NCBI GenBank assembly: GCA_032622095.1
Contig: CP136063.1
Location: forward strand, 30,258,987-30,322,986
Direction of reading: 5' to 3'
Origin: Siphonodentalium dalli
Taxonomy: Eukaryota; Mollusca; Scaphopoda; Gadilida; Siphonodentaliidae
DNA: 64,000 bases
Shown: in pieces, positions 1,382-62,700 of the stretch
How the letters are laid out: every line of letters begins with the position of its first letter
Numbering within the stretch: position 1 is the stretch's first letter
Notes under the pieces: generated by a model
The model's database searches: none
Told to the model about the DNA's origin: nothing
Seen by the model: the letters and a program-made list of their open reading frames with translations, nothing else
Position numbers and translations under genes: made by a program

Positions 1382-1404
1382 GGACTACCTGACTATTCTA
1401 CACA

Positions 1405-1854: not shown

Positions 1855-7133
<5,279 letters not shown>

Positions 7134-12895: not shown

Positions 12896-12972
12896 TTAAA
12901 GGTGCATTATCTCTTTGTAAACATGTAATATATAGTTACCGAAGTATAAAATATTAGATCCGAATCGAAGAG
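12896..12972. mobile_element. Truncated left terminus of the 527-bp TTAA MITE (unit 1)
   Basis: TTAAAGGTGCATTATCTC through GAATCGAAGA matches the left end of the complete elements, then stops abruptly at the border of the CT-rich foldback element. The same junction recurs at 30105-30181, so it was duplicated with the segment. Confidence 0.7.
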
Positions 12973-14485
12973 TTATCTAAGAGTACGTTTATTTTTCTTT
13001 TAGAGTTATTGTTCTTAGGTTTAAAAAAGTGCAGGCCGGCCCCCGCTCCCCCGTTCTACGTGGTGGGGGTCTCATGCACTCCATCCATATCCTGTATTTC
13101 TTACATATTATCCCCTACGTGTATATCGCTCACTCGCTCTTTTGTCCCTCTCCCCTATTGCTCATTTGATCTTCTTCCCTCTTCCCTATTGCTCACTTGC
13201 TCTTTATCATCTCCTCACTTGTTCACTTGCTCTTTTTCCCTCTCCCATATTGCCCACTTGCTCTTCTTTCCTCTCCATATTGCTCACTTGTTTTTCCCCT
13301 CTCCTCACTTGCTCTTCTCTCTCCTCACTTGCTCACTTGTTATTTTTCCCTCTCCTTACTTGCCCACTTGCTCTTTTCCCTCTCATCACTTGCTTTTTTC
13401 CCTTTCCTCACTTGCTCACTTGCTCCTTTTCTTTCTCCTCACTTGCTCTTTTCCCTCTCCCCACTTGCTCTTTTCCCTCTCCTCACTTGCTCTTTTTCCC
13501 TCTCCTCACTTGCTCTTTTCCCCTCTCCTCACTTGCTCTTTTTCCTTTCCTATACTGCTCACTTCCTCTCTCTTTTTCATCTCCCCACTTGCTCACTTCC
13601 TCTTTTTCCCTCTCCCCACTTGCCCACTTGCTCGTTTTACCTCTCCTCACTTGCTGTTTTCCTCTCCTCTATTGCTCACTTCCTCTTTTCCTCTCCTCAC
13701 TTGCTCACTTGTTTTTTCCCTCTCCTCTATTGCTCACTTCCTCTTTTTCCTTTCCCATATTGCTCACTTGCTCTTTTCCCTCTCCTCACTTGCTCGCTCA
13801 CTTGCTCTTTTTCCCTCTCCTCGCTTGCTCACTTGCTCTTTTCCCTTTGCTCACTTGCTCTTTTCCCTTTGCTCACTTGCTCTTTTTCTTTCTCCTCACT
13901 TGCTCACTTGATCTTTTTCCCTCTCCTCACTTGCTCACTTGCTCTTTTTCCCTTTCCTCTATTGCTCACTTCCTCTTTTTCCTCTCCTCACTTGCTCACT
14001 TCCTCTTTTTCCCTCTCCTCACTTGCTCACATGTTCTTTTCCCTCTCCTCTCTTGCTCGTTTTCCCTCTCCTCATTTGCTTTTTTTCTCTCCTCTATTGC
14101 TCATTTCTTCTTTTCCCCTCTTCACTGCCTCACTTGTTTTTCCATCTCCTCTATTGCTCACTGCCTCTTTTTCCTCTCCCCTATTGCCCACTTGCTATTT
14201 TCCATCTCCTCACTTGCTCACTTGCTCTTTTTCCCTCTCTTCACTTGTTCACTTGCTCTTTTCCCTCTCCTCACTTGCTCTTTCTTCCTCTTCTCAGTTG
14301 TTCACTTGTTTTTCCCTCTCATCACTTGCTCACTTGCTCTTTTTCCCTCTCCTCACTGCTCTTTGTCCCTCTCCTCTATTGCTCACTTTCTCTTTTTCCT
14401 CTCCCCATTACTCAGGGGCCGGCCTGCGCTTTTTTAAACCTAAGAACAATAACTCTAAAAGAAAAATAAATGTACTCTTAGATAA
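12973..14485. mobile_element. CT-rich foldback element, copy 1 (1.5 kb)
   Basis: The left arm (12973-13044, TTATCTAAGAGTAC to GGCCGGCCCC) and right arm (14413-14485) are inverted copies of about 71 bp with only a few mismatches. The interior is an almost pure pyrimidine array built on CTCACTTGCTCTTTTCC with variable T runs. The + strand lacks stop codons in several frames, which produces long hydrophobic Leu/Ser/Phe/Cys ORFs that I judge spurious. The arrangement, terminal inverted repeats around a tandem array, is that of a foldback element or satellite-bearing MITE. It has no transposase. Confidence 0.75.
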
Positions 14486-15097
14486 GCGTTTGTATATACC
14501 ACACCACATTCTCTCTTCTTTCCGCTCCTATAGGGACGATAGTTCTTCCCATAATTCGAGATAATGCACGGGTGCGATTTATAAACGATATTTATTAATA
14601 TTTAAGCTTGAGATAATTCAACCGATTTCAAATCATAAAACCAGTAGTGTGAGAAAATATGGTACATTTTAGCCTAAATTATTTACAAATAGATATATCA
14701 CCCCTGGTCAAGTGGTCCTGCTAGTCTGATATGATGTTGGTGATCCTGTTGAATTGGTATGGTGCTGGTAGGGCAAACTGATGCTGTTACAAAAAAGTAC
14801 CATTATTTTTCCTAAAGTTGTCGTTTTGGCTTTGTTTGGCTAAACAGAACGATTTGAGAAAAATGCCAGTGTCTATGAAACATTCAAGAACAATTTTTTT
14901 AAAAACCTCAACAAAGGCTGTGCTAGTGTTTGCAAAACAACATGAATAGCCATCCTGATTATAGTCAAATCACAATTAATACAGCCAGTATTGAAATATT
15001 TTGCAAAATATATGATTTTGAATGTTCGATACAATTATGTTCAGATTATTGGAACACCTCAATCATATGTTTAGAAAAAAATAAGGGTACTTTTTCT
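14486..15097. other. Spacer, no gene seen
   Basis: This is duplicated almost exactly at 32338-32948. It contains short ORFs only; I see no recognisable gene or RNA. Confidence 0.5.
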
Positions 15098-16195: not shown

Positions 16196-16659
16196 TCGTT
16201 TCGTGGATGGTGCTTCTAATCACAACCACATATTTAGACGCACGTTTTTGCGCACAAGACGAAATTTCCTTTGTTCGATTGATACGAGATCCTTCCTTAT
16301 GTTCTTCTTTTTAACTATCCACCCATTTAGGGTAAAGCATTCTGGTATATACATATGTACAGTATCTAGATTGATAAAACAACAATTGGATACAGGTCTG
16401 ACTATCAGTCTGTGCAAAATTTCAAGTGTGAACAAGTGAATATCTTTAGCCAAGAGACGGAGATCGGTATCTTGAACGGTGTCATTGCCACGGACGAGGA
16501 GAAATCATTGAACATCGATGGACCAAGAATGAACTGCAGCTTATCTATAAATATAGCCACTACACGAGATAAACAGCGGATATACGGTATATGACTAAAC
16601 GGTATCTGACGTCACGAGACACACAGCGGATATATAGGACTATCTGACTATTCTACACA
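16196..16659 (+). promoter_or_regulatory. ZNF2 promoter region: CRE and TATA box
   Basis: The block conserved before every ZNF gene ends with TGACGTCA (16607-16614), a full palindromic cAMP-response element of the kind bound by CREB/ATF bZIP factors. TATATA follows 24 bp later (16631-16636) and the ATG 29 bp after that. This spacing is identical in the genes at 25972, 34523, 41481 and 44766, although bases between the two motifs vary. A normal TATA-to-start distance would place transcription start at or beside the ATG. Confidence 0.75.
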
Positions 16660-17136
16660 ATGGGGGCTGCTAATCTGAATAACCATGAGACCGCCGGCAC
16701 AGGTAATAAACGACATGACTGTGATGTATGTGGGAAACTGTTCGCCACTTCAGGCAACTTGGTGAGACATAAGAGAATCCACACCGGAGATAAACCTTAT
16801 CGTTGTGATATATGCGGGGAATCATTTATTCGATCTGACATATTGGTGATACATATGAGCATCCACACCGGAGATAAACCTTATCGTTGTGATATATGCG
16901 GGAAATCGTTTAGTACATCGAGCTACTTGGTGACACATAAGAGAATCCACACCGGAGATAAACCTAACCATTGTGATATATGCGTGAAATCGTTTAATAC
17001 TTCGAGCAACTTGGTGACACATAAGAGAATCCACACCGGAGATAAACCTTACCGCTGTGATATATGCGGGAAATCATTTACTCAATCGGGCAGCTTGGTG
17101 AAACATAAGACAATCCACACTGGAGATAAGCGTTAA
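16660..17136 (+). CDS. ZNF2: poly-C2H2 zinc-finger protein, 5' ORF (158 aa, 5 fingers)
   Basis: The leader is MGAANLNNHETAGTGNKR, followed by five complete C2H2 fingers with TGDKP linkers. Leader plus the first two fingers match ZNF4 (34523), including the distinctive FIRSDILVIH helix, so the two are type-B siblings. Finger 4 has Cys-Val after its second Cys instead of Cys-Gly. The ORF stops at a TAA (17134-17136) caused by a 3-bp insertion between fingers 5 and 6. The frame is not shifted and three more fingers follow in phase. Promoter motifs are intact, so a 5-finger product is plausible. Expression is not shown. Confidence 0.65.
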   Translation: MGAANLNNHETAGTGNKRHDCDVCGKLFATSGNLVRHKRIHTGDKPYRCDICGESFIRSDILVIHMSIHTGDKPYRCDICGKSFSTSSYLVTHKRIHTGDKPNHCDICVKSFNTSSNLVTHKRIHTGDKPYRCDICGKSFTQSGSLVKHKTIHTGDKR

Positions 17137-21669: not shown

Positions 21670-21878
21670 TATGCCCCGCCCGATGGTGTGCTAATGTGGA
21701 TGTTTATATACATGGAAAAGGGCACTAACGTGACAATAACATGCAATCTACGCAATATTTATGATTTGTATAAGAACATATATCTGTTATATACTATTCT
21801 TTCGTTTATGGCGGTTTTAGCGGATGTGACTATTTTACCAGCTATTCCCACGACAAAGGTCGCCCGTATCTTTAACGT
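21670..21878. mobile_element. Relic related to the 504-bp TTAA MITE
   Basis: Sequence around TTATGGCGGTTTTAGCGG and ending GTCGCCCGTATCTTTAA is a diverged version of the right half of the elements at 7144 and 49653. A sister copy ends near 39808. Confidence 0.5.
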
Positions 21879-25449: not shown

Positions 25450-25971
25450 ACTTTAAACCGCCCGGTAACACACTTACTCTCATCTAGACTGTGTATTCAT
25501 CTATCGTTTCGTGGATGGTGCTTCTGATCACAACCACATATTTAGACGCACGTTTATTGCGCACAAGACGATATTTCCTTTGTTCGATTGATACGAGATA
25601 ATTCCTTGTCTTCTTCTTCTTTTTAACTATCCACCCATTTAGGGCGAAGCATTCTGGTATGTACATATGTACAGTATCTATATTGATAAACAACAATTGG
25701 ATACAGGTCTGACTATCAGTCTGTGAAAAAATTCAGGTGTGAACAGGTGAATATCTTTAGTCAAGAGACGGAGATCGGTATCTTGAACGGTTTCGCTGCC
25801 ACGGACGAGAAGAAATCGTTGAACATCCATGGACCAAGAATGAACTGCAGCTTATCTATAAATATAGCCACTACATGTACACGAGATAAACAGCGGATAT
25901 ATATGACTACGCGGTATCTGACGTCACGAGATAAACAGCGGATATATAGGACTATCTGACTATTCTACACA
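25450..25971 (+). promoter_or_regulatory. ZNF3 promoter region: CRE and TATA box
   Basis: The conserved upstream block ends with TGACGTCA (25919-25926), TATATA (25943-25948) and the ATG at 25972, with the invariant 24- and 29-bp spacings. Around 25441-25456 it retains the uninterrupted sequence GACTTTAAACCGCCCGG, the empty site for the MITE at 40189. Confidence 0.75.
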
Positions 25972-27474
25972 ATGGGAGATGCTAACCTGAATAACAATGA
26001 GACCACCAACACAGAGAATAAACGACATCATTGTGATGTATGTGGGAAACTGTTCGCCACTCCAGGCAGCTTGGTGAGACATAAGATAATCCACACCGGC
26101 GATAAGACTCACCATTGTGAAATATGCGGAAAATCATTTAATCAATCGGGCAGCTTGGTGAAACACAAGAAAATCCACACCGGAGATAAATCTTACCGCT
26201 GTGATATATGCGGGAAATCATCTAATACATCAATCGACTTGGTGACACATAAGAGAATCCACACCGGATATAAACCTTATCGTTGTGATATATGCGGGAA
26301 ATCGTTTAATACATCGAGCTACTTGGTGACACATAAGAGAATCCACACCGGAGATAAACCTTATCGTTGTGATATATGCGGGAAATCGTTTAATACATCA
26401 AGCGACTTGGTTACACATAATAGAATCCACACCGGAGATAAACCTTATCGTTGTGATATATGTGGGAAATCGTTTAATACATCAAGCTACTTGGTGAAAC
26501 ATAAGAGAATCCACACCGGTGATAAACCTTACCGCTGTGATATATGCGGGAAATCATTTAATCAATCGAGCTACTTGGTGACACATAAGAGAATCCACAC
26601 CGGGGATAAACCTTACCATTGTGAAATATGCGGAAAATCATTTAATCAATCGGGCAGCTTGGTGAAACATAAGACAATCCACACCGGAGATAAACCTTAC
26701 CGCTGTGATATATGCGGGAAATCATTTAATCAATCGAGCGACTTGGTGACACATAATAGAATCCACACCGGAGATGAGCCTTATCGTTGTGAAATATGCG
26801 GGAAATCGTTTAATACATCAAGCTACTTGGTGAAACATAAGAGAATCCACACTGGAGATAAGCATTACCATTGTGATATATGTGGGAAATCATTTAATGA
26901 ATCTGGCAGCTTGGTGAAACATAAGAGAATCCACACTGGAGATAAGCCTTACCATTGTGATATATGCGGGAAATCGTTTAATACATCGAGCGACATGGTG
27001 ACACATAAGAGAATCCACACCGGAGATAAACCTTACCATTGTGATATATGCGGGAAATCGTTTAATACATCAAGCTACTTGGTGACACATAAGAGAATCC
27101 ACACCGGAGATAAACCTTACCATTGTGATATATGCGGGAAATCGTTTAATACATCGAGCGACTTGGTGAAACATAAGAGAATCCACACCGGAGATAAACC
27201 TTACCAATGTGATATATGCGGGAAATCATCTAATACATCGAGCGACTTGGTGACACATAAGAGAATCCACACCGGAGATAAACCTTACCAATGTGATATA
27301 TGCGGGAAATCATCTAATACATCGAGCGACTTGGTGACAGATAAGAGAATCCACACCGGAGATGAACCTTACCGTTGTGATATATGCGGGAAATCATTTG
27401 ATCAATCGAGCATTTTGACGACACATAAAAGAGTCCACACCGGAGATAGCTCCACATACATCTCTCCAAATTGA
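25972..27474 (+). CDS. ZNF3: intact 17-finger C2H2 zinc-finger protein (500 aa)
   Basis: This is the only uninterrupted gene of the cluster, single-exon. The leader (residues 1-18, MGDANLNNNETTNTENKR) is followed by 17 fingers of exactly 28 residues (19-494) and the tail TYISPN. Fingers are C-x2-C-x12-H-x3-H with TGDKP linkers instead of the commoner TGEKP. Finger 16 has Asp for the first zinc His (LVTDKRIH) and is probably non-functional. Fingers 3, 15 and 16 have Ser at the hydrophobic-core Phe position (GKSSNTS). Predicted base-contact positions -1, 3 and 6 are drawn from a small set: T/Q/E/D, Y/S/D/I, and T/K. No effector domain is visible, so repressor or activator cannot be decided. It is probably a nuclear DNA-binding protein. 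The strong start context is ACAATGG. Confidence 0.9.
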   Translation: MGDANLNNNETTNTENKRHHCDVCGKLFATPGSLVRHKIIHTGDKTHHCEICGKSFNQSGSLVKHKKIHTGDKSYRCDICGKSSNTSIDLVTHKRIHTGYKPYRCDICGKSFNTSSYLVTHKRIHTGDKPYRCDICGKSFNTSSDLVTHNRIHTGDKPYRCDICGKSFNTSSYLVKHKRIHTGDKPYRCDICGKSFNQSSYLVTHKRIHTGDKPYHCEICGKSFNQSGSLVKHKTIHTGDKPYRCDICGKSFNQSSDLVTHNRIHTGDEPYRCEICGKSFNTSSYLVKHKRIHTGDKHYHCDICGKSFNESGSLVKHKRIHTGDKPYHCDICGKSFNTSSDMVTHKRIHTGDKPYHCDICGKSFNTSSYLVTHKRIHTGDKPYHCDICGKSFNTSSDLVKHKRIHTGDKPYQCDICGKSSNTSSDLVTHKRIHTGDKPYQCDICGKSSNTSSDLVTDKRIHTGDEPYRCDICGKSFDQSSILTTHKRVHTGDSSTYISPN

Positions 27475-30104: not shown

Positions 30105-30181
30105 TTAAAGGTGCATTATCTCTTTGTAAACATGTAATATATAGTTACCGGAGTATAAAATATTAGATCCGAATCGAAGAG
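30105..30181. mobile_element. Truncated left terminus of the 527-bp TTAA MITE (unit 3)
   Basis: Same fragment and same junction with the CT-rich element as at 12896-12972. Confidence 0.7.
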
Positions 30182-32337
30182 TTATCTAAGAGTACGTTTA
30201 TTTTTCTTTTAGAGTTATTGTTCTTAGGTTTAAAAAAGTGCAGGCCGGCCCCCGCTCCCCCGTTCTACGTGGTGGGGGTCTCATGCACTCCATCCATATC
30301 CTGTATTTCTTACATATTATCCCCTACGTGTATATCGCTCACTCGCTCTTGTGTCCCTCTCCCCTATTGCTCATTTGATCTTCTTCCCTCTTCCCTATTA
30401 CACACTTGCTCTTTATCGTGTCCTCACTTGTTCACTTGCTCTTTTTCCCTCTCCCATATTGCCCACTTGCTCTTCTTTCCTCTCCATATTGCTCACTTGT
30501 TTTTCCCCTCTCCTCACATGCTCTTCTCTCTCCTCACTTGCTCACTTGCTATTTTTCCCTCTCCTTACTTGGCCACTTGCTCTTTTCCCTCTCATCACTT
30601 GCTTTTTTCCCTTTCCTCACTTGCTCACTTGCTCTTTTTCTTTCTCCTCACTTGCTCTTTTCCCTCTCCCCACTTGCTCTTTTCCCTCTCATCACTTGCT
30701 CTTTTTTCCTCTCCCCACTTGCTCTTTTTCCCTCTCCTCACTTGCTCTTTTTCCTTTCCTATATTGCTCACTTCCTCTTTTTCATCTCCCCACTTGCTCA
30801 CTTCCTCTTTTTCCCTCTCCCCACTTGCTCACTTGCTCGTTTTACCTCTCCTCACTTGCTCTGTTTTCCTCTCCTCTATTGCTCACTTCCTCTTTTCCTC
30901 TCCTCACTTGCTCACTTGTTTTTTCCCTCTCCTCTATTGCTCACTTCCTCTTTTTCCTTTCCCATATTGCTCACTTGCTCTTTTCCCTCTCCTCACTTGC
31001 TCACTCACTTGCTCTTTTTCCCTCTCCTCACTTGCTCACTTGCTCTTTTTCCCTTTGCTCACTTGCTCTTTTCCCTTTGCTCACTTGCTCTTTTTCTTTC
31101 TCCTCACTTGCTCACTTGATCTTTTTCCCTCTCCTCGCTTGCTCACTTGCTCTTTTCCCTTTCCTCTATTGCTCACTTCCTCTTTTTCCTCTCCTCACTT
31201 GCTCACTTCCTCTTTTTCCCTCTCCTCACTTGCTCACATGTTCTTTTCCCTCTCCTCTCTTGCTCGTTTTCCCTCTCCTCATTTGCTTTTTTTCTCTCCT
31301 CTATTGCTCATTTCTTCTTTTCCCCTCTTCGCTGCCTCACTTGTTTTTCCCTCTCCTCTATTGCTCACTTCCTCTTTTTCCTCTCCCCTATTGCCCACTT
31401 GCTATTTTCCATCTCCTCACTTGCTCACTTGCTCTTTTTCCCTCTCCTCACTTGTTCACTTGCTCTTTTCCCTCTCCTCACTTGCTCTTTTTTCCTCTTC
31501 TCAGTTGTTCACTTGTTTTTCCCTTTCATCACTTGCTCACTTGCTCTTTTTCCCTCTCCTCACTTGCTCTTTGTCCCTCTCCTCTATTGCTCACTTCCTC
31601 TTTTTCCTTTCCCATATTGCTCACTTGCTCTTTTCCCTCTCCTCACTTGCTCACTCACTTGCTCTTTTTCCCTCTCATCACTTGCTCGCTTGCTCTTTTT
31701 CCCTTTGCTCACTTGCTCTTTTCCCTTTGCTCACTTGCTCTTTTTCTTTCTCCTGACTTGATCTTTTTCCCTCTCCTCACTTGCTCACTTGCTCTATTTC
31801 CCTTTCCTCTATTGCTCACTTCCTCTTTTTCCTCTCCTCACTTGCTCACTTCCTCTTTTTCCCTCTCCTCACTTGCTCACATGTTCTTTTCCCTCTCCTC
31901 TCATGCTCGTTGTCCCTATCCTCATTTGCTTTTTTTCTCTCCTCTATTGCTCATTTCTTCTTTTCTCCTCTTCACTGCCTCACTTGTTTTTCCCTCTCCT
32001 CTATTGCTCACTTCCTCTTTTTCCTCTCCCCTATTGCCCACTTGCTATTTTCCATCTCCTCACTTGCTCACTTGCTCTTTTTCCCTCTCCTCACTTGTTC
32101 ACTTGCTCTTTTCCCTCTCCTCACTTGCTCTTTTTTCCTCTTCTCAGTTGTTCACTTGTTTTTCCCTTTCATCACTTGCTCACTTGCTCTTTTTCCCTCT
32201 CCTCACTTGCTCTTTGTCCCTCTCCTCTATTGCTCACTTTCTCTTTTTCCTCTCCCCCATTACTCAGGGGCCGGCCTGTGCTTTTTTAAACCTAAGAACA
32301 ATAACTCTAAAAGAAAAATAAATGTACTCTTAGATAA
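30182..32337. mobile_element. CT-rich foldback element, copy 2 (2.2 kb)
   Basis: The same inverted-repeat arms as at 12973-14485 are present (left 30182-30253, right about 32266-32337). The pyrimidine core is about 640 bp longer because a block near 31155-31795 is repeated immediately at 31797-32300. The long ORFs here (up to 656 codons) are compositional artefacts. Confidence 0.75.
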
Positions 32338-32948
32338 GCGTTTGTATATACCACACCACATTCTCTCTTCTTTCCGCTCCTAAAGGGACGATAGTTCTTC
32401 CCATAATTCGAGATAATGCACGGGTGCGATTTATAAACGATATTTATTAATATTTAAGCTTGAGATAATTCAACCGATTTCAAATCATAAAACCAGTAGT
32501 GTGAGAAAATATGGTACATTTTAGCCTAAATTATTTACAAATAGATATATCACCCCTGGTCAAGTGGTCCTGCTAGTCTGATATGATGTTGGTGATCCTG
32601 TTGAATTGGTATGGTGCTGGTAGGGCAAACTGATGCTGTTACAAAAAAGTACCATTATTTTTCCTAAAGTTGTCGTTTTGGCTTTGTTTGGCTAAACAGA
32701 ACGATTTGAGAAAAATGCCAGTGTCTATGAAACATTCAAGAACAATTTAAAAAAAAACCTCAACAAAGGCTGTGCTAGTGTTTGCAAAACAACATGAATA
32801 GCCATCCTGATTATAGTCAAATCACAATTAATACAGCCAGTATTGAAATATTTTGCAAAATATATGATTTTGAATGTTCGATACAATTATGTTCAGATTA
32901 TTGGAACACCTCAATCATATGTTTAGAAAAAAATAAGGGTACTTTTTC
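32338..32948. other. Spacer, no gene seen (unit 3)
   Basis: Near-identical duplicate of 14486-15097. Confidence 0.5.
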
Positions 32949-34060: not shown

Positions 34061-34522
34061 GTTTCGTGGATGGTGCTTCTAATCACAACCACATATTTAG
34101 ACGCACGTTTTTGCGCACAAGACGAAATTTCCTTTGTTCGATTGATACGAGATCCTTCCTTATGTTCTTCTTTTTAACTATCCACCCATTTAGGGTAAAG
34201 CATTCTGGTATATACATATGTACAGTATCTAGATTGATAAAACAACAATTGGATACAGGTCTGACTATCAGTCTGTGCAAAATTTTAAGTGTGAACAAGT
34301 GAATATCTTTAGCCAAGAGACGGAGATCGGTATCTTGAACGGTGTCATTGCCACGGACGAGGAGAAATCATTGAACATCGATGGACCAAGAATGAACTGC
34401 AGCTTATCTATAAATATGGCCACTACACGAGATAAACAGCGGATATACGGTATATGACTAATCGGTATCTGACGTCACGAGACACACAGCGGATATATAG
34501 GACTATCTGACTATTCTACACA
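34061..34522 (+). promoter_or_regulatory. ZNF4 promoter region: CRE and TATA box
   Basis: TGACGTCA (34470-34477), TATATA (34494-34499) and the ATG at 34523 keep the invariant 24- and 29-bp spacing. The region is nearly identical to that of ZNF2. Confidence 0.75.
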
Positions 34523-36186
<1,664 letters not shown>

Positions 36187-39480: not shown

Positions 39481-40188
39481 TACCACACTTGAAATTATTG
39501 TGTTTTATTTTTGTTATTATTTCGTCTTAAGTCAAAAGTTTCAAACAAATTAAACTAAACCTTGCCTCAATCTACTCCAGAAATGGCGTAGTAGGCCTAT
39601 GCCCCGCCCGACGGTGTGCTAATGTGGATGTTTATATACATGGAAAAGGGCACCAACGTGACAATAACATGCAATATACGCAATATTTATGATTTGTATA
39701 AGAAAAAGATATATCTGTTATATTATGTTCGTTCTGTTTATGGCGGGTTTACAGGATGTGACTATTTTACCAGCTATTCCCACGACAAAGGTCGCCCGTA
39801 TATTTAACGTTTATTTGCGACAAAATTACCCAATAAAATTTCTGGTCTATGCAGGGCGAATAACGAAATTTAGTTTTGATGAATAGTTAATGTGTATATA
39901 GAATGATAGATTAATACATGCACAATATAATAAAGTTTATACTCACCAAATATACATGTATATATAGGAAATGTGATGATTGTATCAAATATTAATGAAA
40001 ATAACAATAGCAATAAAAATTCAAATTTACCATGTGTTCAGTTTGGTTTCTGTTTCAGTTCATTTTGTATCTGTCAATATCGTCTGTTGGTCTCAAGACG
40101 AGAGATCCGGTTCATTTTCCTAATTTCACTAACATCTTGTCTCTATTTGGTGGAATACCCATTTTTTGGGGGAGAGAATGTTGTGACT
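39481..40188. other. Spacer before the ZNF5 region, no gene seen
   Basis: It matches 21560-22060 and then 15840-16140. It includes a relic of the 504-bp MITE (to about 39808) and a degraded copy of the minus-strand exon-like repeat (donor complement at 39941-39946). Confidence 0.5.
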
Positions 40189-40716: not shown

Positions 40717-41480
40717 ACTGACGGTAGCACACTTACTCACTTGTAGGCTGTGTATTCATCTATCGTTTCGTGGATGGTGCTTCTAATCACAACCACATAT
40801 TTAGACGCACGCTTTTGCGCACAAGACGATATTTCCTTTGTTCGATTGATACAAGATCCTTCCTTATCTTCTTCTTTTTAACTATCCACCCACTTAGGGT
40901 GAAGCATTCTGGTATGTACATATGTACAGTATCTAGATTGATAAAGCAACAATTGGATACATGTCACGGAGACGAGCAGGTCTGTGCAAAATTTCCCATG
41001 TGAACAGTTCACGAATATCTTTAGTCAAGAGACGGAGATCGGTATCTTGAACGGTCTCGCTGCCACGGACGAGGAGAAATCATTGAACATCGATGGACCA
41101 AGAATGAACTGCTGCTTATCTATAAATATAGCCACTACACGAGATAAACAGCGGATACATGTATAGGACTATCTGACGTCACGAGATAAACCGCGGATAT
41201 ATATGACTAATCGGTATCTGACATCACAAGATAAACAGCGCATATATAGGACGTGTGAACAATTCACGAATATCTTTAGCCAAGAGACGGAGATCGGTAT
41301 CTTGAACGGTCTCGCTGCCACGGACGAGGAGAAATCGTTGAACACCGATGGACCCAGAATGGACTGCAGCTTATCTATAAATATAGCCACTACACGAGAT
41401 AAACATGGATACATGTATAGGACTATCTGACGTCACGAGTTAAACCGCGGATATATATGACTATCTGACTATTCTACACA
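40717..41480 (+). promoter_or_regulatory. ZNF5 promoter region, tandemly duplicated
   Basis: A block of about 255 bp is repeated (40999-41253 and 41254 onward). There are therefore two CRE/TATA modules: TGACGTCA at 41174-41181 with TATATA at 41198, and TGACGTCA at 41428-41435 with TATATA at 41452. Both keep the 24-bp spacing. The proximal one is 29 bp from the ATG, as in the other genes. Confidence 0.75.
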
Positions 41481-42293
41481 ATGGGAGATGCTAACCTGAA
41501 TAACCATGAGACCGCCAACACAGAGAATAAACGACATGACTGTGACGTATGCGGGAAACTGTTCGCCACTTCAGGCAGCTTGGTGAGACATAAGAGAATC
41601 CACACCGGAGATAAGCCTCACCATTGTGAAATATGCGGAAACTCATTTAACCAATCGGGCAGCTTGGTGAAACATAAGAGAATCCACACCGGAGATAAGC
41701 GTTACCATTGTGATATATGTGCGAAATCATTTATTGAATCGGGCAGCTTGGTGACACATAAGAGAATCCACACCGGGGATAAACCTTACCATTGTGAAAT
41801 ATGCGGAAAATCATTTAATCAATCGGGCAGCTTGGTGAAACATAAGACAATCCACACCGGAGATAAACCTTACCGCTGTGATATATGCGGGAAATCATTT
41901 AATCAATCCAGCGAGTTGGTGACACATAAGAGAATCCACACCGGAGATAAGCCTTATCGTTGTGAAATATGCGGAAAATCATTTAATCAATCGAGCAGCT
42001 TGGTGAAACATAAGAGAATCCACACTGGAGATAAGCCTTACCATTGTGATATATGTGGGAAATCATTTATTGAATCGGGCAGCTTGGTGACACATAAGAG
42101 AATCCACACCGGAGATAAACCTTATCGTTGTGATATATGCCGGAAATCGTTTAATACATCGAGCAACTTGGTGACACATAAGAGAATCCACACCGGAGAT
42201 GAACCTTACCGTTGTGATATATGCGGAAAATCATTTAATCAATCGGGCAGCTTGTTGAAACATAAGATAATCCACACTGGAGATAAGCTTTAA
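41481..42293 (+). CDS. ZNF5: C2H2 zinc-finger protein, 5' ORF (270 aa, 9 fingers)
   Basis: The leader MGDANLNNHETANTENKR is intermediate between the A and B types. Nine intact C2H2 fingers follow, dominated by QSGSLVK and ESGSLVT helices. The ORF ends at a TAA (42291-42293) created by a 3-bp insertion between fingers, TTTAATACCATTG. The same kind of insertion at the same place in a finger ends the ZNF2 ORF. Fingers continue in phase after it. The promoter is intact and doubled. Confidence 0.7.
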   Translation: MGDANLNNHETANTENKRHDCDVCGKLFATSGSLVRHKRIHTGDKPHHCEICGNSFNQSGSLVKHKRIHTGDKRYHCDICAKSFIESGSLVTHKRIHTGDKPYHCEICGKSFNQSGSLVKHKTIHTGDKPYRCDICGKSFNQSSELVTHKRIHTGDKPYRCEICGKSFNQSSSLVKHKRIHTGDKPYHCDICGKSFIESGSLVTHKRIHTGDKPYRCDICRKSFNTSSNLVTHKRIHTGDEPYRCDICGKSFNQSGSLLKHKIIHTGDKL

Positions 42294-44280: not shown

Positions 44281-44765
44281 ATCGTTTCGTGGATGGTGCT
44301 TCTAATCACAACCACATATTTAGACGCACGTTTATTGTGCACAAGACGATATTTCCTTTGTTAAAATTGATACGAGATCCTTCCTTATCTTCTTCTTCTT
44401 TTTAACTATCCACCCATTTATGGAGAAGCATTCTGGTATCTACATACCGGGACATGTGCAGTATCTAGTTTGATAAACCAACAATTGGATACATGTCACG
44501 GAGATGTCTGACTCAGTCTGTGCAAAATTTTACGTGTGAACAGTTCACGAATATCTTTAGCCAAGAGACGGAGATCGGTATCTTGAACGGTCTCGCTGCC
44601 ACGGACGAGGAGAAATCGTTGAACATCGATGGACCAATAATGAACTGCAGCTTACATGTATCTATAAATATAGCCACTACACAAGATAAACAGAATAGGA
44701 CTAATCGGTATCTGACGTCACGAGGTAAACAGCGGATATATAGGACTATCTGACTATTCCACATA
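44281..44765 (+). promoter_or_regulatory. ZNF6 promoter region: CRE and TATA box
   Basis: TGACGTCA (44713-44720), TATATA (44737-44742) and the ATG at 44766 keep the invariant 24- and 29-bp spacing despite several indels further upstream. Confidence 0.75.
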
Positions 44766-45500
44766 ATGGGAGATGTTAACATGAATAACCATGAGACCAC
44801 CAATACAGACAATAAACGACATCATTGTGACGTGTGCGGGAAACTGTTCGCCACTCAAGGCAGCTTGGTGAGACATAAGATAATCCACGCCGGAGATAAG
44901 CCTCACCGTTGTGAAATATGCGGAAAATCATTTATTCAATCGAGCCACATGGTGACACATAAGAGAATCCACACCGGAGATAAGCCTTATCGTTGTGATA
45001 TATGTGGGAAATCATTTAATCAATCGTCCCACTTAGTGACACATAAGAGAATCCACACTGGAGATAAACCTTACCATTGTGATATATGCGGGAAATCATC
45101 TAATACACCGAGCAACTTGGTGACACATAAGAGAATCCACACCGGAGATAAACCTTATCGCTGTGATATATGCGGGAAATCATCTAATACACCGAGCGAC
45201 TTGGTGACACATATGAGAATCCACAACGGAGATAAGCCTTATGGTTGTGAAATATGCGGAAAATCATTTAATCAATCTGGCAGCTTGGTAACACATATGA
45301 GAATCCACACCGGAGATAAACCTTACCATTGTGATTTATGCGGGAAATCGTTTAATACTTCGAGCAGCTTAGTAACACATATGAGAATCCACACCGGAGA
45401 TAAACCTTACCATTGTGATATATGCGGGAAATCGTTTAATACTTCGAGCATCTTGGTAACACATCAGAGAATCCACACTGGAGATGAACCTTATCGTTGA
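44766..45500 (+). CDS. ZNF6: C2H2 zinc-finger protein, 5' ORF (244 aa, 8 fingers)
   Basis: The leader MGDVNMNNHETTNTDNKR is followed by eight C2H2 fingers. All eight keep the four zinc ligands; fingers 4 and 5 have Ser at the core Phe position. The ORF ends where the first Cys codon of finger 9 (TGT) has become TGA (45498-45500). The promoter is intact, so an 8-finger product is plausible. Confidence 0.7.
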   Translation: MGDVNMNNHETTNTDNKRHHCDVCGKLFATQGSLVRHKIIHAGDKPHRCEICGKSFIQSSHMVTHKRIHTGDKPYRCDICGKSFNQSSHLVTHKRIHTGDKPYHCDICGKSSNTPSNLVTHKRIHTGDKPYRCDICGKSSNTPSDLVTHMRIHNGDKPYGCEICGKSFNQSGSLVTHMRIHTGDKPYHCDLCGKSFNTSSSLVTHMRIHTGDKPYHCDICGKSFNTSSILVTHQRIHTGDEPYR

Positions 45501-46082: not shown

Positions 46083-46350
46083 TACCCATAACATATGAGC
46101 AGAGGGATGCTCGTATCCCGGTTCCACAGTAGAGGCACCCCTGTCTTGGATTCCGGTAGTGGAACATCACTAATGGTATCCAGAGCAGTCTACCTTACGG
46201 CAATTTACAAATGTCATGATAAGAGTAACAAAAGCATAGAATATAACAGTCTAGACTACCTTGGATTAAGCGCTTGATCATATTATTGTGTAAAAACCAA
46301 CTAATAACGTAAACGCTCTTTATTCATGACATGGCATATCGCCGGAAACG
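46083..46350. repeat. Direct repeat R, left copy (about 270 bp)
   Basis: TTGTGATACCCATAACATA through GGCATATCGCCGGAAAC is repeated in the same orientation at 52833-53103. The pair brackets the 6.5-kb non-ZNF region. The flanks show no target duplication, so I do not call them LTRs. Confidence 0.8.
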
Positions 46351-48334
46351 AATCAACAAGGTATATAACTCATATTAAAATTGGTCGGGCGGATTCCAAA
46401 TCCGAACTTTACCCGTTTACTAGTTCAGTAAATTTCCAGACCAAATCCAGCCAATTCAGTTGAACCCACCAAACCCCTCATAGGGAGATGAACAAGGGAG
46501 AGAATACCAAAAAAATGGGGCCATAGCTATATATGGTAGAAGTTGGCCAACGGTCCCAGATTATGGACCCGACCTGTCTCTGTATATAGTATACCCAAAT
46601 ACCAAATTACATGTTATCCAGTTGATACTATATAAAGTTATTATCCATAAATCAAAATCGAATAGATGGTTGGACAGACCGACAGACGGACAGATAAATA
46701 ATTTAATGTGTCCATGTTAATTTTTTAATTTAAACATATCATGTTGCACGGTGACTTTGAGTTTCCGATATTATGCATCACATCCAATGGTATTAAACAA
46801 TACACACACAAACACACACACACACACACACATGTATATGTATGCGTGCTTAGGGTGGAAATTCCAGATAATCGTAACAATCATGCTTAATATCCATCCT
46901 TAGCATATTACCGTCGAAAACACGCTTTTTGGGTGATATTGTATGATTATGGAGTTAATTATCAGAAAGTAACCACATTGTTACAAGAGGTAAACATTCC
47001 GGTGTTGATTACTCACACTATCGTGGCAAGGTTGTTTTGTTATCTAGTCATCGGGGGTACCGCTGTTCATATGGGGATGATAGCCCATATACTATACCTG
47101 TTATTAAACCATAGCATTTATAAGGATTAAGAACCGTTTGCATACAAAGTTATATGGGGACAGACCCAAGAGAAAATATAAGTGTTTATTTAGGAGGGAC
47201 TTAATTTTAGTTTGTCTATATATACATATACACATTAGACAACACAATGCAACGCTCTTTATCAATGGGTTTCCTTTATATTGTATATATAAATACTGTA
47301 TTCTCTACACAGTATATACTAGTAATAGGTTATAGATCTTAAACAATATCGTGATTTAGCCTAATGTTATATAATTTGGAAAAGGTTTACTACGATCATG
47401 CCGAAAATGGTCTGTAAAATGTTGGGAATCAGAAAATAAATAACCAGCATGGGTCATCGAGGAGAGCATCTCTAGCTTAAACGAACTTCACATACAGAAC
47501 GTTTCTTTGTGGTTTCGGTTCTGTACGCTCCCGACCTAATATGATCACTAGAGAAAGAACCGTGCAGTTCAAAATTACCGAACTACACCCCAGCTGAAAA
47601 TGCGCCAAAAGTAACCTCGTAATCAAGCACACGTAGATTTTCAAACGATTGATCGCGCGCGATGGTGCACCAAAAAAACCGTACAGTATAAACCTGTATG
47701 TCGCGTACAGGTATACATAATATGTAAGTTTTTAATTGTTTATTTTTGTTCCATCCTGGATATAGGTTGGATTTATCGCTCATCTGAATAGCAATTATTC
47801 AGAACCAGGTCTTGGAAGTTCAGATAAAGTTGACAATATTAAATTTATAGGAATCGAGCTGTCAAGTAGAATGAAACAAAGTTACCTTAATTTGTTGATT
47901 TACATGGTCGAAGTGTTATCCATTGTCCAAGGCATATATATAAACACGTATGGTGGCGAATAGACATCCACCACACCCACAAGGAAAACAAACAATGTCT
48001 GAATGTTTACAGACAAAATGGAACCGGACATTGTATTGCAGAAGATGTTTGTTTGGGAAAATGACGTTGATGAGTCATATGACGTAATCGCGCGCGACGT
48101 CGTTGATGTGTGCTGTTAACCACCGACCTGCCAAATTAGTTATAGATACTGATGCAGTATCCAGAAAAGGAACAGTGTTTACCGTGGCATGGATTGTTTA
48201 TTAAATCAATGTATTGCAGCCCAAGGTATATCTAGGTGAAACAGAAAACAACAAACCATAAAAAGCAGTCAAACTCAAAATTTAATATGACTAAATATAA
48301 TGTAAGGGTTGTCCCTATAAACTGAGTTATTCTT
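46351..48334. other. Spacer with microsatellite, no gene seen
   Basis: It contains an (AC)n run (about 46801-46831) and ORFs under 70 codons. Nothing is recognisable. Confidence 0.5.
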
Positions 48335-48784
48335 AGTCCAGCAGCCAAGAGCCGAATTTTGGCCTAACCCAAAATTCTCTGTTAAAGTTTTTTTCTCGGC
48401 GGAAAATTCATTAGTAGTATCTCGGCAAATGTTTTCCGGTTGATGTGCTCTTGTAACCCTTGGGGAAATATAAATATTCAACATTGCAACAACCTACCCA
48501 AAACGGCATATGGCCATACGGGTGTGATCATGTTTTATTCAGTAGCAGAAGTTGGAAATCACGTAAGAACGTTTGTTTATGTACGTATGTTCACACCAGA
48601 TCACAAAAATATCAAGATCTTACTTTTATAGGATTATACAAAATGGCTGTCATACAATCTACATTTTCATGTTACGAAAATGTACACTTTCGAAACATGA
48701 CTCAATGGTGAAGCCCAATAATATAGACCGGATTTTGTTATGTCACGTGTTCTCATATGCATGTAGAACAAAAATAGGTCAAGT

Positions 48785-51700
48785 ATGTCGAAATGCTTAT
48801 TCAAATTCCATTACAAAGAAGCTTGCAATAGCAATGAAAAGTGCACTGAAAATGCCGGTGAGGGGCGCATACACTCTATAATATACGCGGGCAAAATATA
48901 TGGCGATGGCCTGCATGAAACTCTCGAACAAAGTCTTAATATAGACAGCAAAATTAAAGTGTCGTTTCACAGAAATTGTGCTTCCAGATACACATCAAAA
49001 ACTAATGTTGAAGCATCCAAACGCAGCAATTCACCAGCTATTCTACCGACACGTTCACGTAGGTCAGCCGGCAACTTTAATTTCCAACTGATTGTCTATA
49101 CTGTGGTGAGACATGTATTGTCGAAAAAGAACCCAGACATCCAGATCGATGGCGTCCTGCTTTCATTTACCGATCAACGCAAACAGTAGAAAGAAGCCGT
49201 ATAAGGTCGCTCTTGTGAAGAAGTGTGATTTGCGACGAGAATAGTGGGCAGAAGAGGTTCGGGGTGAAATTCAGAGTGTGGTTAGTGATTTGCACGTTGT
49301 CGGGGCAAGGTACCACAGAGACTGTATGACATGTTAGCATGTATGCATTTGCCCATGAGTTATTGTGGATCCATCGGGTCACTGATGATGGGAACCGGCC
49401 TGACAGAAATTTTAGAGTCGACTTTTGGCGGAGTCTTAAAAATGCTTAAAGGCAAAAAATATAAGAGCTTTGCGTCTGTTGACAGAGGAGTTATGCGATG
49501 CATGTGTGACCTCTTGGTTGTTCTGGAGGCATCCGTAAGTGAGAGCAGAACCGCTATGCTCTGGATTGAATGTCTAATCAAGCCCATGTTCATAATACTG
49601 AGATATATTAGAGCAGAGCGGGAATCTGATTGGCCGCTCCATCTAGACACCATTAAAGGCACGTGAGGCCTTAGTTGTCGAAAATAGTCATATTTTTTCC
49701 AATCACCGTAAACAGAAAAACATTAAAACGCATACAGTTTCGTTCATATATACCATGACCATCGCGTAAACAGCATGTTATCATAAATATTTACTATATT
49801 TTACCTAAGCAAGAGCTTGATTGTGTTACAGAAGACAACACAATGCTGCTGGCTAGTCACACACAAATGGCATAAACGCTCTTTATTCGTTCCATATCAG
49901 GAATTCACCAACAAAGAACGCTCTTTATGTTTACCATCATAATATAAACAAACACCAGAAAAGTAACTTTTTTATGCTTTTGTTTACATAACAATGGTCA
50001 AAAATATGACAATAACATACTGTTTATGCGATATTTCTTATTTGTATACGGACAAAGTCTGTCTACATTTGGTTGTTCTTTCTGTTTGTGGCGGTTTTTG
50101 ACGGGTGGAAATATTTTCACAGGATACCCACCGCCAAGGCCAACCGTACCTTTAAGGAGATGATTCCTCTTTTCTTCGCGGCTGGACACACTCAATATGC
50201 CAGATATGCATCCTTTACCTGCGGTCAATGGAATCACTAGCTGATGATGCTCAGGTGCCATTCATGAAGGGTGAGCACACTGTGCACTACAATAGTGGCA
50301 TTTTAATGGCATTTGGAGTGACATGGCGATTGAGACCACCTTCATACGATATGGTCATGGACGCTCAGGTATAATCGGCATCACGCTGAAACCAGAGAGT
50401 GTTCGTACATGGGCATACAGTTTGAATACATGCAATTGTCTGATATACGATTTGGATTGTATGCGAGAGAAAGGAGGCAGACATGTCATAAAGAAGAATT
50501 AAGTTCAAGAATAAAGGTTGACAAGGCTGATCGCGATTCACTAAAGCATAAGCTGGAGCTGTGCATTGACCCACTTGATCCGAAGCAGCATCCACAAGGG
50601 ATCGTCAATGTGGAGTCCGGACGAGTGACTACCCATTCCTCCGCCAATGTAGATACGGCGGTGGAACTTGGACGAGAACAGATGATAAATTTCGAAAAAG
50701 ATTGGCCGTCCAGTTTCCATAATGCAATAAACCGGAACGTGAAAAAAAATTCAGCAGCTAGTAAGCATATAAACATTGGCAACATACAACTTTTCGACAC
50801 AGAAGTGATCTATGCGAGGGCAATGGGATTGAAGAATAGTACGAGGAGCTTGGATATTGATGACATCCTTTCGTATGAGCTATCGCCTATCCACCTTCCA
50901 TGTTTGAGTCTAACGGGCATATGAAGGAAGCAAAGTCCAAATCAATCTTGAAGAATGCGCTACGTGTTGTCATCATTGCTGACGTACCAAAGGGCGAGTG
51001 TCAGCCACGCCACCTTCCTAGACGACTGTGCAATTCTATGGACAGTACGATGGCCACCGCTGGGAGTAGTGCAAGATTTCCTTGATGAATATCGGTCTTA
51101 TACTTACAACACTAAGAAAGAAAACAGATGTATACTTGATATTCGATAGGTATAATAAACTCAGCATCAAAGAATCGACGCGATTAGCCCGAGACAAAGG
51201 GGCTAGCAGAGTCTTCACACTCAAGCAAAACACGAGGCTACCTCCACAAAAAGTTATCCTGACAGTGAGTGACAACAAAGCACAGCTTATTGACATGATT
51301 GTTAATGATCTCCAGGTACACCAGGAATGTTTTGCCAATACAAATAAACGACTCGTAGTAACCGGAAAGGATTCCATTCCTGAAGATATTAATAAGGGCA
51401 TATGTATCAATAGGCCTGATCTCATATCGACCCACGATGTAGGAGATACTCTCATTGTTCAACGGGTTGCAAGAGTAGCCGCCCAAACATCGTTAGTTGT
51501 GGCAGATGACACTGACATATTTGTAATGTTACTCCATTTCCTTTATCATGGTGATTTATCCGGCCATATACTGATGGTACCACCGGCAAAGGGACGGATC
51601 ACAATAAACATCAATGAAACGCTCAAAGCTCACATAAATATCGCTCGTGACCTTTTATCAATGCATGGACTCACCTGATGTGACACTGTCGTGGCTCTAC

Positions 51701-52255
51701 ATGGCATAGGGAAATGTACTGCCCTTAAGATTCTCAAAGTTAGAAATCACAATCGAACAAATAATAGTGTGCCATCTGCTGCAATAGAGAGAGTTGTAGG
51801 TGTGGCTAAGTCATTTATTTTGGATTGCTATGGACAACCAATTTGCCAATCAACCACAGATGCTCGACGGAAGATATGGTCCAACAAAGTTAGCCGCAGC
51901 ATGGCTGCAGCGCCATAACTGATTTCTCTACCTCCAGCCGACGATGCTTTAATGGAAAATATTAAACGCGCCCACTTACACGTAAGTGTATGGAGACATT
52001 CGCTTGAGGACACACCTGCTGATCTCAATTCAACTGATTATGGCTGGTCGAGAGAGAACGTTCACTCGTCCCAACCATTGTCCCAACTCGGAAATCACTA
52101 GCTCATGAGACTATACTAAAACCCATTAGATGTTGTTGTGCTTCAAAGTTTAAATTACACGGCGTTCTGTTCGTGTGAGGGGACGGTCGGTGTACGAACG
52201 AGCTGACACATCAACATGACGAGGAAGATACTGATGACATACACTGACTGTTCTA
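48785..52255 (+). pseudogene. Broken large invertebrate protein with XPG/PIN-like nuclease region
   Basis: Pieces in order: an N-terminal Cys/His region (KIYGDGLHETLEQ, FHRNCASRYTSK near 48960-49010; CLYCGETC and HPDRWRPAF near 49095-49160 after a frameshift; RYHRDCM near 49310), a middle part (SDWPLHLDTIK near 49630, interrupted by the 503-bp MITE, then MIPLFFAAGHTQYARY near 50160 and YGHGRSGIIGITLKPE near 50350), and a C-terminal part (TDVYLIFDRYNK, LPPQKVILTV, VVADDTDIFVMLLHF near 51500-51540, GIGKCTALKIL near 51703). Paired Asp residues followed by a Gly-x-Gly helix-hairpin-helix motif resemble FEN1/XPG nucleases. The order matches a large uncharacterised family I recall from several invertebrate genomes. 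A TGA (51676-51678) replaces a Gly codon just before CDTV, and several frameshifts show it is dead. Confidence 0.7.
49653..50155. mobile_element. TTAA MITE, 504-bp family, copy 2
   Basis: It is inserted inside the transposon pseudogene. Removing it together with one TTAA joins the frame DTIK and EMIPLFFAAGH across the site, proving a TTAA target duplication. Ends are as in the copy at 7144-7647. Confidence 0.85.
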
Positions 52256-52747
52256 GGTAAATTATTTCTTCAATACACCAATGCTGATGTACATATGTCA
52301 TAATAATTCTTTTGTTTATGTCCTAATGACATGTTGTTACCAAATAAAGCAAAAATGTTAAATGTCCGAAGCAATGCCTTGATAGACTCGCAACAGTTAC
52401 GATTTGAGAAATTAGTGCGGCCATTTTGGCAGCCATCTTGAGTATTTAATAGTATATTTTGTCCAGTTAATGTAATTTGTCACAACATGTCATAATGGAT
52501 ACATCTTATCGTATTTCTGCTGCCATATATACTGTTATTGATACGGACTTGCCGCTAACATGGTCAAGGTATACACACTATTTAAGACCTTCGGGCACTC
52601 AGCGGCCATTTTGAATAAAAAAAGTTCCCCAAAGGTTACACATCCACATCAACCGGAATATCAATAACGACACCCCCGTGATGCATTATCAACAGAGAAA
52701 AAAACTTTAACAGAGAATTTTGGGTTAGACCCCAGTTCTGCTGGACT

Positions 52748-52832
52748 ATAAACTGTCAAACGTCTAATGATCAAAAGACTCATCTAAAGCGGGTGACCAG
52801 GAACACCGAGTTCCATATCATATTAGTTTTGT
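52748..52832. other. Short spacer between transposon and repeat R
   Basis: Unique sequence; nothing recognised. Confidence 0.4.
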
Positions 52833-53103
52833 GATACCCATAACATATGAGCAGAGGGATGCTCGTATCCCGGTTCCACAGTAGATGCACCCCTTTCTTG
52901 GATTCCGGTAGTGGAACATCACTAATGGTATCCAGTGCAGTCTACCTTACGGCAGTTTACAAATGTCATGATAAGAGTAACAAAAGCATAGAATATAACA
53001 GTCTAGACTACCTTGGATTAAGGACCCTTGAGCATATTCTTGTGTAAAAACCAACTAATAACGTAAACGCTCTTTATTCATGACGTGGCATATCGCCGGA
53101 AAC
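52833..53103. repeat. Direct repeat R, right copy
   Basis: About 270 bp and nearly identical to 46083-46350. It ends directly against a relic of the ZNF upstream region. Confidence 0.8.
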
Positions 53104-53283
53104 ATCTTCTCTGTAATTAGTGAAATACCCGATCAATTGAACGACAAATATTCTTTATTGTCCCTTTTTGAGGAGATGATTGTTGTGACCCTAAACTGCC
53201 CGGTATTGCATACTTACAGAACAGAATAGGATATTTCCATCGTCCTTTGTTTGAATAATACTTGATCAATCCTATTCTACACG
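53104..53283 (+). promoter_or_regulatory. Diverged ZNF upstream block before ZNF7
   Basis: TTGAACGACAAATATTCTTTATTG and CTAAACTGCCCGGTA correspond to 16090-16170, and CTATTCTACACGATG to the promoter end of other units. The CRE/TATA segment is missing. Confidence 0.6.
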
Positions 53284-54757
<1,474 letters not shown>

Positions 54758-59700: not shown

Positions 59701-62700
59701 GTAACGCACTAGGCGATATGTGAGGTTAGTAGGTGCGTTAAATGTCGACGTTGGACCAAGGATGGCCCAACGTTGTCCATAGTGTGGAGAAATCGGTCGA
59801 TTACGTCGTAGAGTCATTTTAACGTCACCCTTAACTGGTCGCGTGTTTCTTTTTCAAATAACGCTTTGGTTTGTTGATTGAACTTGCATTTGTGCTCTGA
59901 GTGAGCTTCTCGGTTTAATGGATTATTATTTGGATAATGCACCACGGAACACCATCATCAGCTATAGGGACCCGAAGAATTACCGGTAAGTACTTTAGTT
60001 GAGAATATCATGCCGAATAACATGGAATTTCAACGATAAGCGTGCGTCGTCGGATTCATTTCCTCCACAACCAACTTAAAGTTTGAATTTGAAGTTTAAC
60101 CCTTCAATTCTCAGAAACGAAAACAAATAAATTTATGTCAGTTTCGTGTGATGGCATCCGACTGTATAAGGAAGAAAATGTCATTTTAATTACTATCTAA
60201 ATTTCACGATCCATGTGTGATAATGCATGGATTTAGGGACATGGCGGTAGGGGTGTTGCACGGGTGTCTCACATTCCCCACCCTACCACAGGTTTGGTCA
60301 AAATTTTCAACAGTTGGATATTTCATACATGACACAACATTAATTGGAACTTTCGCACGGTCACACCAACATTCAACAATATTATAGGTTGAGATTGTTC
60401 TCGTATATTGATTTTCCAACAATTATTAATTGTTTTTGGAACATCATTTGCACATTGTCCGACTTTTGGTAAACAAAATTGACTGAAATGGCATCAGTTG
60501 GAAATTTTACGACCTTAGGGTGGGGGGGTGTCTCAGGTTGGAAATTTCCAACAATTGGAATTCTTGAGGCCAGTCTAGATGTTAGGAGTTAGCTATTTTC
60601 AGGTTCGGATCTCAAAATGTTCTCAGTGTATTCCGTTCCTCTTCTGGTTGTGGCAACGATACTACTGATCCATTTATAATAATGCTAACATCTAGGCTGT
60701 GGGAGCAGTAACTTTTGGGGAAATAAAACCCCAAAGGGGGTTGCAGTTGAAAATTCCAAAGTGGATGCACATTGCACCCCTCCCCAACGCTGAAATCCAT
60801 CCAACCACGTCCCTAATCATGGATTTCAATGGATAACTAAGTTCAGCCTACGACAGTGGACACCGTTCGACTTTCAGTTGTATACCCTAATAGGCTAAAT
60901 GCTTATAGTTGTTGGGGGTGTACGTGTACTGCCAGAATAGGAATTTACGATTGCAACACCCCCTTTCGTTGAAGAAAATGCTCAAGCTGCAAACCAGAGT
61001 TCAGTCCCCTCGCTACGGTGTCTGTCGCCCTGTTATGTAGGAGATTGATTTATGCATGGAGTTTGCCAAAATTTAATGCTAAGTAACTATATTCGAACAA
61101 CCTCCCCTTAATTCGGTATTTTCCAACCGGTACCTTGAATCCACTTGTCGGTTTGCGCTCCAAAATACACACCTAATAATATTCTCTTGTGGATTTTTCC
61201 CCGTATCGAAATAGGTCGATAAATAAATGTCACAGAAAGATGCATTGAAGTCATAACAAATACAAGATTGAATACGATGTTTGGGTCCCAACAAAAAATC
61301 AGCTATTTACACGGAGCGTTCCGTGTTTGTCTATATATTCCTGATATGTTATAAATAAAGAGCGTTCGTTTCACTTCTGTGCGAAAAATTTAAAACAGCT
61401 GGAAAATGACAATGGAAAGTACTTACTAGAGCATATGACGCCAATGTATCAATATTTTGTCGACTAGGCCATTCTTGTGTGATTACCAGTACATACTTAA
61501 TCGGAGGAGGGGGGGGCTTATATTGAGGTGTGAAAGGGTCTATCTGCTCTTTCGAGTATGATTCCCGGGGAAGTTTTTAGTTTCTGAAACATATACATGT
61601 ACCTATTTATGGTCTCCGAATCAGTGACGTGGCTACATGGTCTTTGTTATGGTGTGTCAACGTTGAATTTCCTCTTGAACCAGACACCAAACTCCTTCGC
61701 GAGTTTCCATTTGCACCCCCCCCCCTTTGCATTGAAACTTTCCAACCGGCATCCAATCTTTTCAACTGTTGGCAATTTCCAAATTGAATTAGACTGGAAC
61801 ATTTCCAAAATGGTGTTCATTTCAGACAACAATTTTTACTAAAGTCTAAAGTTGAAAAAATATGATACCGTAGGTGTAAACAAAAATATTCCTACTGATT
61901 GTTGGAAAATCAAACAATGAAAACACGCACTTAAAGTTACCAAGTAATGATGTGTGAGACATGAAATTTTCAACTCTTTTTTACAATGACTCGCGTCACA
62001 GGGGTTTGAAACTCGCTCCGCTGCCCAGCAATGGGCATACACCCATAGTTGCAAAAAAATAATTTCATTTTACAAACTTTACATTACGTACGTATCATTT
62101 GACATTGTTTACGTCAAAGAAGCACGTCATATTGATACGTTGTGCCAATGTTCAAATGGCTGGAGCTGTTGGAAGGAAGTTATTAAGTTGTCACAATAAT
62201 TATTTCAGTTGTAGTGTAGGCATATATAGTCGTAACGTTGAGTAATTTTAGGATTTATGTATTTGGTTTGGGTCAATTTGTGTATTGATGCCTCGCCCAC
62301 AAACGACCAATGACTACATAATGGACGTTGTCACTGTATTAAATGCCGTGTGTCCCTAAAATATAAATTTGAACACCCCCCCCCCCCAATAATATACATG
62401 ATTAGTTATTATTGGGCGGGTAATGCAACATCTTGGGGATATGTGGGACGTGGCGGCAGGGGGCGGCGACATGCACAACTTTTGGAAATTTTTAATAATT
62501 TTGGCGATACATATGGGCATTTTTATCCAATAATAACATATTACCCATCCCATATTTTGTCTGAGGTATTCATAATAATTAATTACTTGGCTTGAGGCAC
62601 AAAGCTACCAACTAAAATAGTTTGTTGTTCTAACCAGTAGGCCTACATTTAGAGCAGTTTGTCAGAAAGGCGGTCTGCTACCAACATGATGTTGTCGAGT

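Follow-up and report, generated by a model that had tools for sequence, protein, structure and literature searches.

Organization of the locus

The 64-kb window, i.e., the whole stretch of DNA analyzed here, contains between positions 48335 and 52747 a broken gene enclosed by imperfect terminal inverted repeats and split by a second, nested element (Table 1). The paired termini span 138 nt and are 74% complementary, with a local alignment score of 99 compared with a maximum of 27 among 1000 shuffles. In a gapped alignment the pairing extends further outward, reaching TAGTCCAGCA on both sides. A previous reading of this DNA, made from the sequence only, had placed inverted repeats of about 125 bp around a broken gene; the alignments corroborate these repeats, and the boundary proposed for the element agrees with ours within 1-2 bases.

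The best-paired boundary, 48335/52747, which is set from a single copy, shows only TA/TA and no visible target duplication of 3-4 bp. A 10-bp direct repeat, CTATAAACTG, provides an alternative candidate, and it occurs exactly twice within the window. When about 20,000 pairs of 30-mers were drawn at random from the nearby flanks, 0.12% shared a run of at least 10 bases. The repeat may nevertheless be due to chance, since its left copy lies about a dozen bases off register. By blastn, neither the element nor its ends recur in the window, the matches being relatives of the nested element and short alignments at chance level.

Table 1. Coordinates of the element, its boundaries, the pieces of its gene and the nested insertion.
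Feature	Position	Strand	Description
10-bp direct repeat CTATAAACTG, left copy	48315-48324	+	lies 9 bases outside TAGTCC; candidate for an alternative target duplication
TA, left boundary	48334-48335		possible 2-bp target duplication or inverted-repeat tip
Left terminal inverted repeat	48335-48487	+	outermost AGTCCAGCAG...; well-aligned part 48350-48487
Gene piece 1	48785-49030	+	frame 3; N-terminal Cys/His-containing stretch ending HRNCASRYTS...; zinc-binding-like by eye
Gene pieces 2-3	49093-49334	+	frames 2 then 1; second Cys/His-containing stretch, CLYCGETC...ARYHRDCMTC
Gene piece 4	49355-49656	+	frame 3; ends WPLHLDTIK at the nested insertion
Nested non-autonomous element	49653-50155		TTAA copies at 49653-49656 and 50152-50155; inverted ends TAAAGG(C/T)ACG
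Gene pieces 5-6	50151-50299	+	frames 1 then 3; KEMIPLFFAAGHTQYARYA and MESLADDAQVPFMKGEHTVHYNSG
Gene piece 7	50302-50472	+	frame 2; FNGIWSDMAIETTFIRYGHG...
Gene piece 8	50484-50900	+	frame 1; ~139 aa within the open stretch of 196 codons at 50334-50924
Gene piece 9	51015-51119	+	frame 1; FLDDCAILWTVRWPP...; possible N-terminal acidic nuclease motif (putative)
Gene piece 10	51118-51918	+	frame 2; XPG/FEN1-like region VYLIFDRY...VVADDTDIF...CDTVVALHGIGKCTALKIL
C-terminal continuation	51919-52098	+	same frame as piece 10; LPPADDALMENIKRAHLHVSVWRHS...YGWSRE
Right terminal inverted repeat	52605-52747	-	...CTGCTGGACT; well-aligned part 52605-52742
10-bp direct repeat CTATAAACTG, right copy	52746-52755	+	overlaps the element's right end
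TA, right boundary	52747-52748		possible 2-bp target duplication or inverted-repeat tip

A decayed gene between the repeats

Three-frame translation of the element yields a plus-strand chain of coding-like pieces that runs from 48785 to about 52098, all of them sharing one direction and together filling the interval between the terminal repeats. The pieces were given a putative order by position and, in part, by analogy with related uncharacterised proteins. The gene is extensively decayed: apart from the nested insertion, some nine changes of frame and three or more in-frame stops were counted on this translation. The longest stop-to-stop stretches inside the element still reach 202 and 196 codons; among 2000 simulated dinucleotide-matched sequences (median 100, maximum 212), a longest stretch of 202 was attained in two. 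One stop-to-stop stretch of 140 is present on the minus strand. The chain of pieces and the rarity of such open stretches by chance substantiate the broken gene that the sequence-only reading had proposed.

The Cys/His stretches at the N-terminus are putative zinc-binding regions, the second of which (pieces 2-3) is interrupted by one frame change and an in-frame TAG. The central region of the gene is made up of KEMIPLFFAAGHTQYARYA and FNGIWSDMAIETTFIRYGHG followed by ~139 aa from piece 8. The 196-codon stretch that contains piece 8 overlaps piece 7, in a different frame, at its beginning. Piece 10 has an in-frame TGA at 51676-51678 as well as the stop at 51916-51918. When five gene pieces were compared with the window by tblastn, self-matches were the only ones with E below 0.4. 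A Pfam search of seven gene pieces with E up to 1 returned neither XPG nor any other nuclease, and nothing above a family cut-off.

A nested element interrupts the gene

The gene is split by a nested element of ~495 bp that had escaped the sequence-only reading. A second copy, at 7145-7647, matches it with 95% identity across 504 positions. This other copy has TTAA at its right end and CTAA on its left, so that only one of the pair shows a perfect four-base duplication. Partial and weaker matches were found at 21703-21875, at 39631-39807 and, over 48 nt, at 61337-61384. Joining the flanks of the nested element restores a single TTAA and the open reading HLDTIKEMIPLFFAA, from which it follows that this element inserted into the gene and, therefore, that the host element predates the insertion. 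A 16-base stretch within the nested element (49873-49888) also recurs exactly at 46310-46325 and 53064-53079.

Probable likeness of the C-terminal part to XPG/FEN1 nucleases

The motifs VVADDTDIF and GIGKCTALKIL, on which an XPG/FEN1-like end had been proposed, are indeed present, at 51496-51522 and 51703-51735, in a single frame and with the TGA of piece 10 directly before CDTVVALHGIGK. Three core motifs of the XPG/FEN1 nucleases, DxD, GxD and the GIG turn, occur in order in the 3' part of the gene, the G of GxD corresponding to the TGA stop in the window sequence. The likeness was quantified with a profile built from eight solved segments of FEN1, EXO1, XPG and GEN1. With the TGA read as G, the fragment scored 18.3 bits, a value reached by none of 5000 shuffles (best 11.8), HMMER scores being reported for 3409 of the 5001 sequences. 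Since the glycine at the stop had been chosen, which favours a nuclease reading, the test was repeated with X at this position; the score was then 13.7 bits, and one of 20,000 shuffles equalled or exceeded it (14.1). The masked fragment ranks first among 629 sequences, namely the fragment itself and the window's 628 ORFs with a length of at least 40 aa. The runner-up is its own 79-aa sub-piece (8.7), and the best unrelated ORF scores 2.2.

Most of the profile signal derives from the GxD...GIG...A stretch. Six residues separate the GxD aspartate from the glycine turn, as in three of the eight references (EXO1, XPG and 1rxv), while the other five have seven. The distance between DxD and GxD is 56 residues, within the 49-61 of the references. 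On the other hand, the ExE position reads HDVGDT, with one acid only, and lies 21 residues from DxD compared with 19 in all eight references.

Family and structure searches were negative. No XPG match was obtained for the fragment in Pfam with E up to 10, so that it is not detectable by the curated family profile, and a PDB sequence search returned no nuclease. Pfam matches to unrelated families below the cut-off (DUF5492, Sugar-bind, EB and a beta-solenoid) and PDB matches to aspartate semialdehyde dehydrogenase and yckF were rejected as chance. An AlphaFold model from the single sequence of the broken fragment had a mean pLDDT of 34 and an uninformative fold. Taken together, the C-terminal part probably resembles an XPG/FEN1 nuclease core. 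The nuclease-like end is thus supported by the ordered motifs and the profile, though unseen by the Pfam and PDB sequence searches.

Search for relatives

Relatives were sought in viral, phage, plasmid and prokaryote collections, which are improbable sources of an invertebrate gene, and no intact homolog emerged from them. By tblastn, neither the XPG-like piece in phages nor a central gene piece in plasmids found a relative. Pattern scans of viral contigs likewise yielded none; in two of these scans 46 and 6 stretches fit a short pattern, without any being confirmed. Two pattern scans of prokaryote genome contigs gave none and one, respectively. The latter, on a contig of 3.4 kb from a Sumerlaeota bin, was rejected, since its minus-strand match falls within a long frame that by eye resembles a glycosyltransferase. 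The XPG family (PF00867) gave no hit in the single genome searched, that of this bin; 4 of the 14 control genomes were positive, and no loci were returned.

Identity of the element and alternative explanations

We consider it likely that 48335-52747 represents a dead, presumably once mobile and autonomous cut-and-paste DNA transposon, most probably of the AcademX type. The AcademX nuclease is of the XPG type. The sequence-only reading had also regarded the gene as transposon-borne and possibly Academ-type; the position of the gene between terminal inverted repeats is borne out. The 3-4 bp duplication is not seen at the boundary, and the Academ assignment is plausible but unproved.

The TA that flanks both best-paired ends, the restriction of CTATAAACTG to the two ends and the missing 3-4 bp duplication would also suit a non-Academ DNA transposon that carries an XPG/FEN1-like nuclease and belongs to another or unnamed superfamily making TA or ~10-bp target duplications. 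We regard this as unlikely: the copy is old and single, so its target duplication may have decayed, the left CTATAAACTG is off-register, and, to our knowledge, no eukaryotic group of DNA transposons other than Academ has an XPG-type nuclease. It is quite unlikely, in turn, that the XPG/FEN1 likeness is coincidental and that the region has some other fold, e.g., an RNase H-like transposase core, and comes from another DNA transposon. Such a coincidence would be in keeping with the weak absolute score of the masked fragment, the imperfect ExE motif and the lack of a match in either Pfam or PDB, but it has to contend with several motifs in the correct order and with a masked score that one in 20,000 shuffles, and none of the 628 window ORFs, could reach. 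These two readings overlap in part, and our estimates therefore need not total one.

Very unlikely is a decayed host gene, either an XPG-family repair paralogue or a processed pseudogene, that came to lie by chance between unrelated inverted repeats. Although XPG-like motifs are common to cellular repair enzymes and no homolog is demonstrated to be mobile here, the gene occupies the whole space between repeats whose pairing is far beyond chance, and none of the seven gene pieces matches a Pfam family above its cut-off. In addition, the longest open stretches of the near flanks measure no more than 84 aa (47300-48334) and 77 aa (52748-53374).

As an AcademX-type transposon, the element would have been ~3.9 kb long once intact (4.4 kb including the nested insert) and would have encoded a single protein of, very roughly, 900-1000 residues. 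Both the joining of the pieces into one ordered protein and the function of each domain are inferred. The N-terminal Cys/His stretches would probably bind DNA at the terminal repeats, the central region may contain the transposase core, and the XPG/FEN1-like part could act as a metal-dependent nuclease helping to cut or process the element ends. If the FEN1-like domain is indeed the end-cutting enzyme, the chemistry of transposition would be unusual, which a dead copy cannot show. We deem highly improbable the more far-reaching proposal of a nuclease-bearing lineage distinct from AcademX, with TA or ~10-bp duplications and a FEN1-like domain acting in transposition, whose transposases would account for many 'hypothetical' invertebrate proteins.

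Genes of this build are annotated as uncharacterised proteins in invertebrate gene sets. For annotation, it would be advisable to check such genes for terminal repeats and to mask them as transposons.

Genomic neighbourhood

C2H2 zinc-finger reading frames are numerous among the longer ORFs of the window (1393-6873, 16648-17136, 25960-27474, 34511-35764, 41469-42293, 44754-45500 and 53375-54705). Several of them share a near-identical start, some are interrupted by stops, and the cluster probably consists of recent tandem duplicates. In style, these reading frames are suggestive of a coleoid cephalopod. Expansions of C2H2 genes have been described in coleoid cephalopods (PMC12513265). The regions 12958-14564 and 30167-32383 are repetitive, begin with the same sequence and have long open frames in several frames (LAHLLF and SLSS repeats); they likely represent a duplicated tandem repeat and not genes.

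Comparison with known systems

Like the FEN1, XPG, EXO1 and GEN1 nucleases, the C-terminal part presents the DxD, GxD and GIG turn in the same order, with a D-to-turn spacing shared by three of the eight references and a DxD-GxD distance inside their range, and its profile score lies above nearly all shuffles. It differs from them in being embedded in a long protein whose remaining pieces match no known family, and in being a decayed copy that lacks one ExE acid, has a different ExE-DxD spacing and falls below Pfam detection.

Two Academ lineages are distinguished: AcademX carries a nuclease and has target duplications of 3-4 bp, and AcademH carries a helicase and has duplications of 9-10 bp (PMC10045372). 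The length of Academ elements is a few kb, with a mean of 5565 bp for the curated bivalve consensuses, and a survey of molluscs found them almost exclusively in bivalves (PMC10294476). In the main text of a paper on Octopus vulgaris repeats, the string 'academ' appears only within 'Academic Press' (PMC13282606). An old Academ-like remnant would widen this range slightly if its host were a cephalopod. No paper joining 'Academ' and 'XPG' as whole words was found in the full texts searched, which represent a minor share of the literature.

A possible 9-10 bp target duplication, here the out-of-register CTATAAACTG, would be shared with AcademH. In contrast to AcademH, the element has a nuclease-like end, and Pfam detected no helicase family in the seven gene pieces, which are decayed and incomplete. 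As a nuclease-bearing Academ lineage, AcademX, is already in print (PMC10045372), the element would not be new in kind; it is probably an ordinary genomic fossil of the Academ kind and not a new system. Compared with published descriptions of AcademX, the element is shorter (~3.9 kb without the nested insert) and shows no visible 3-4 bp duplication, while both have terminal inverted repeats and one long gene that includes a nuclease-like domain.
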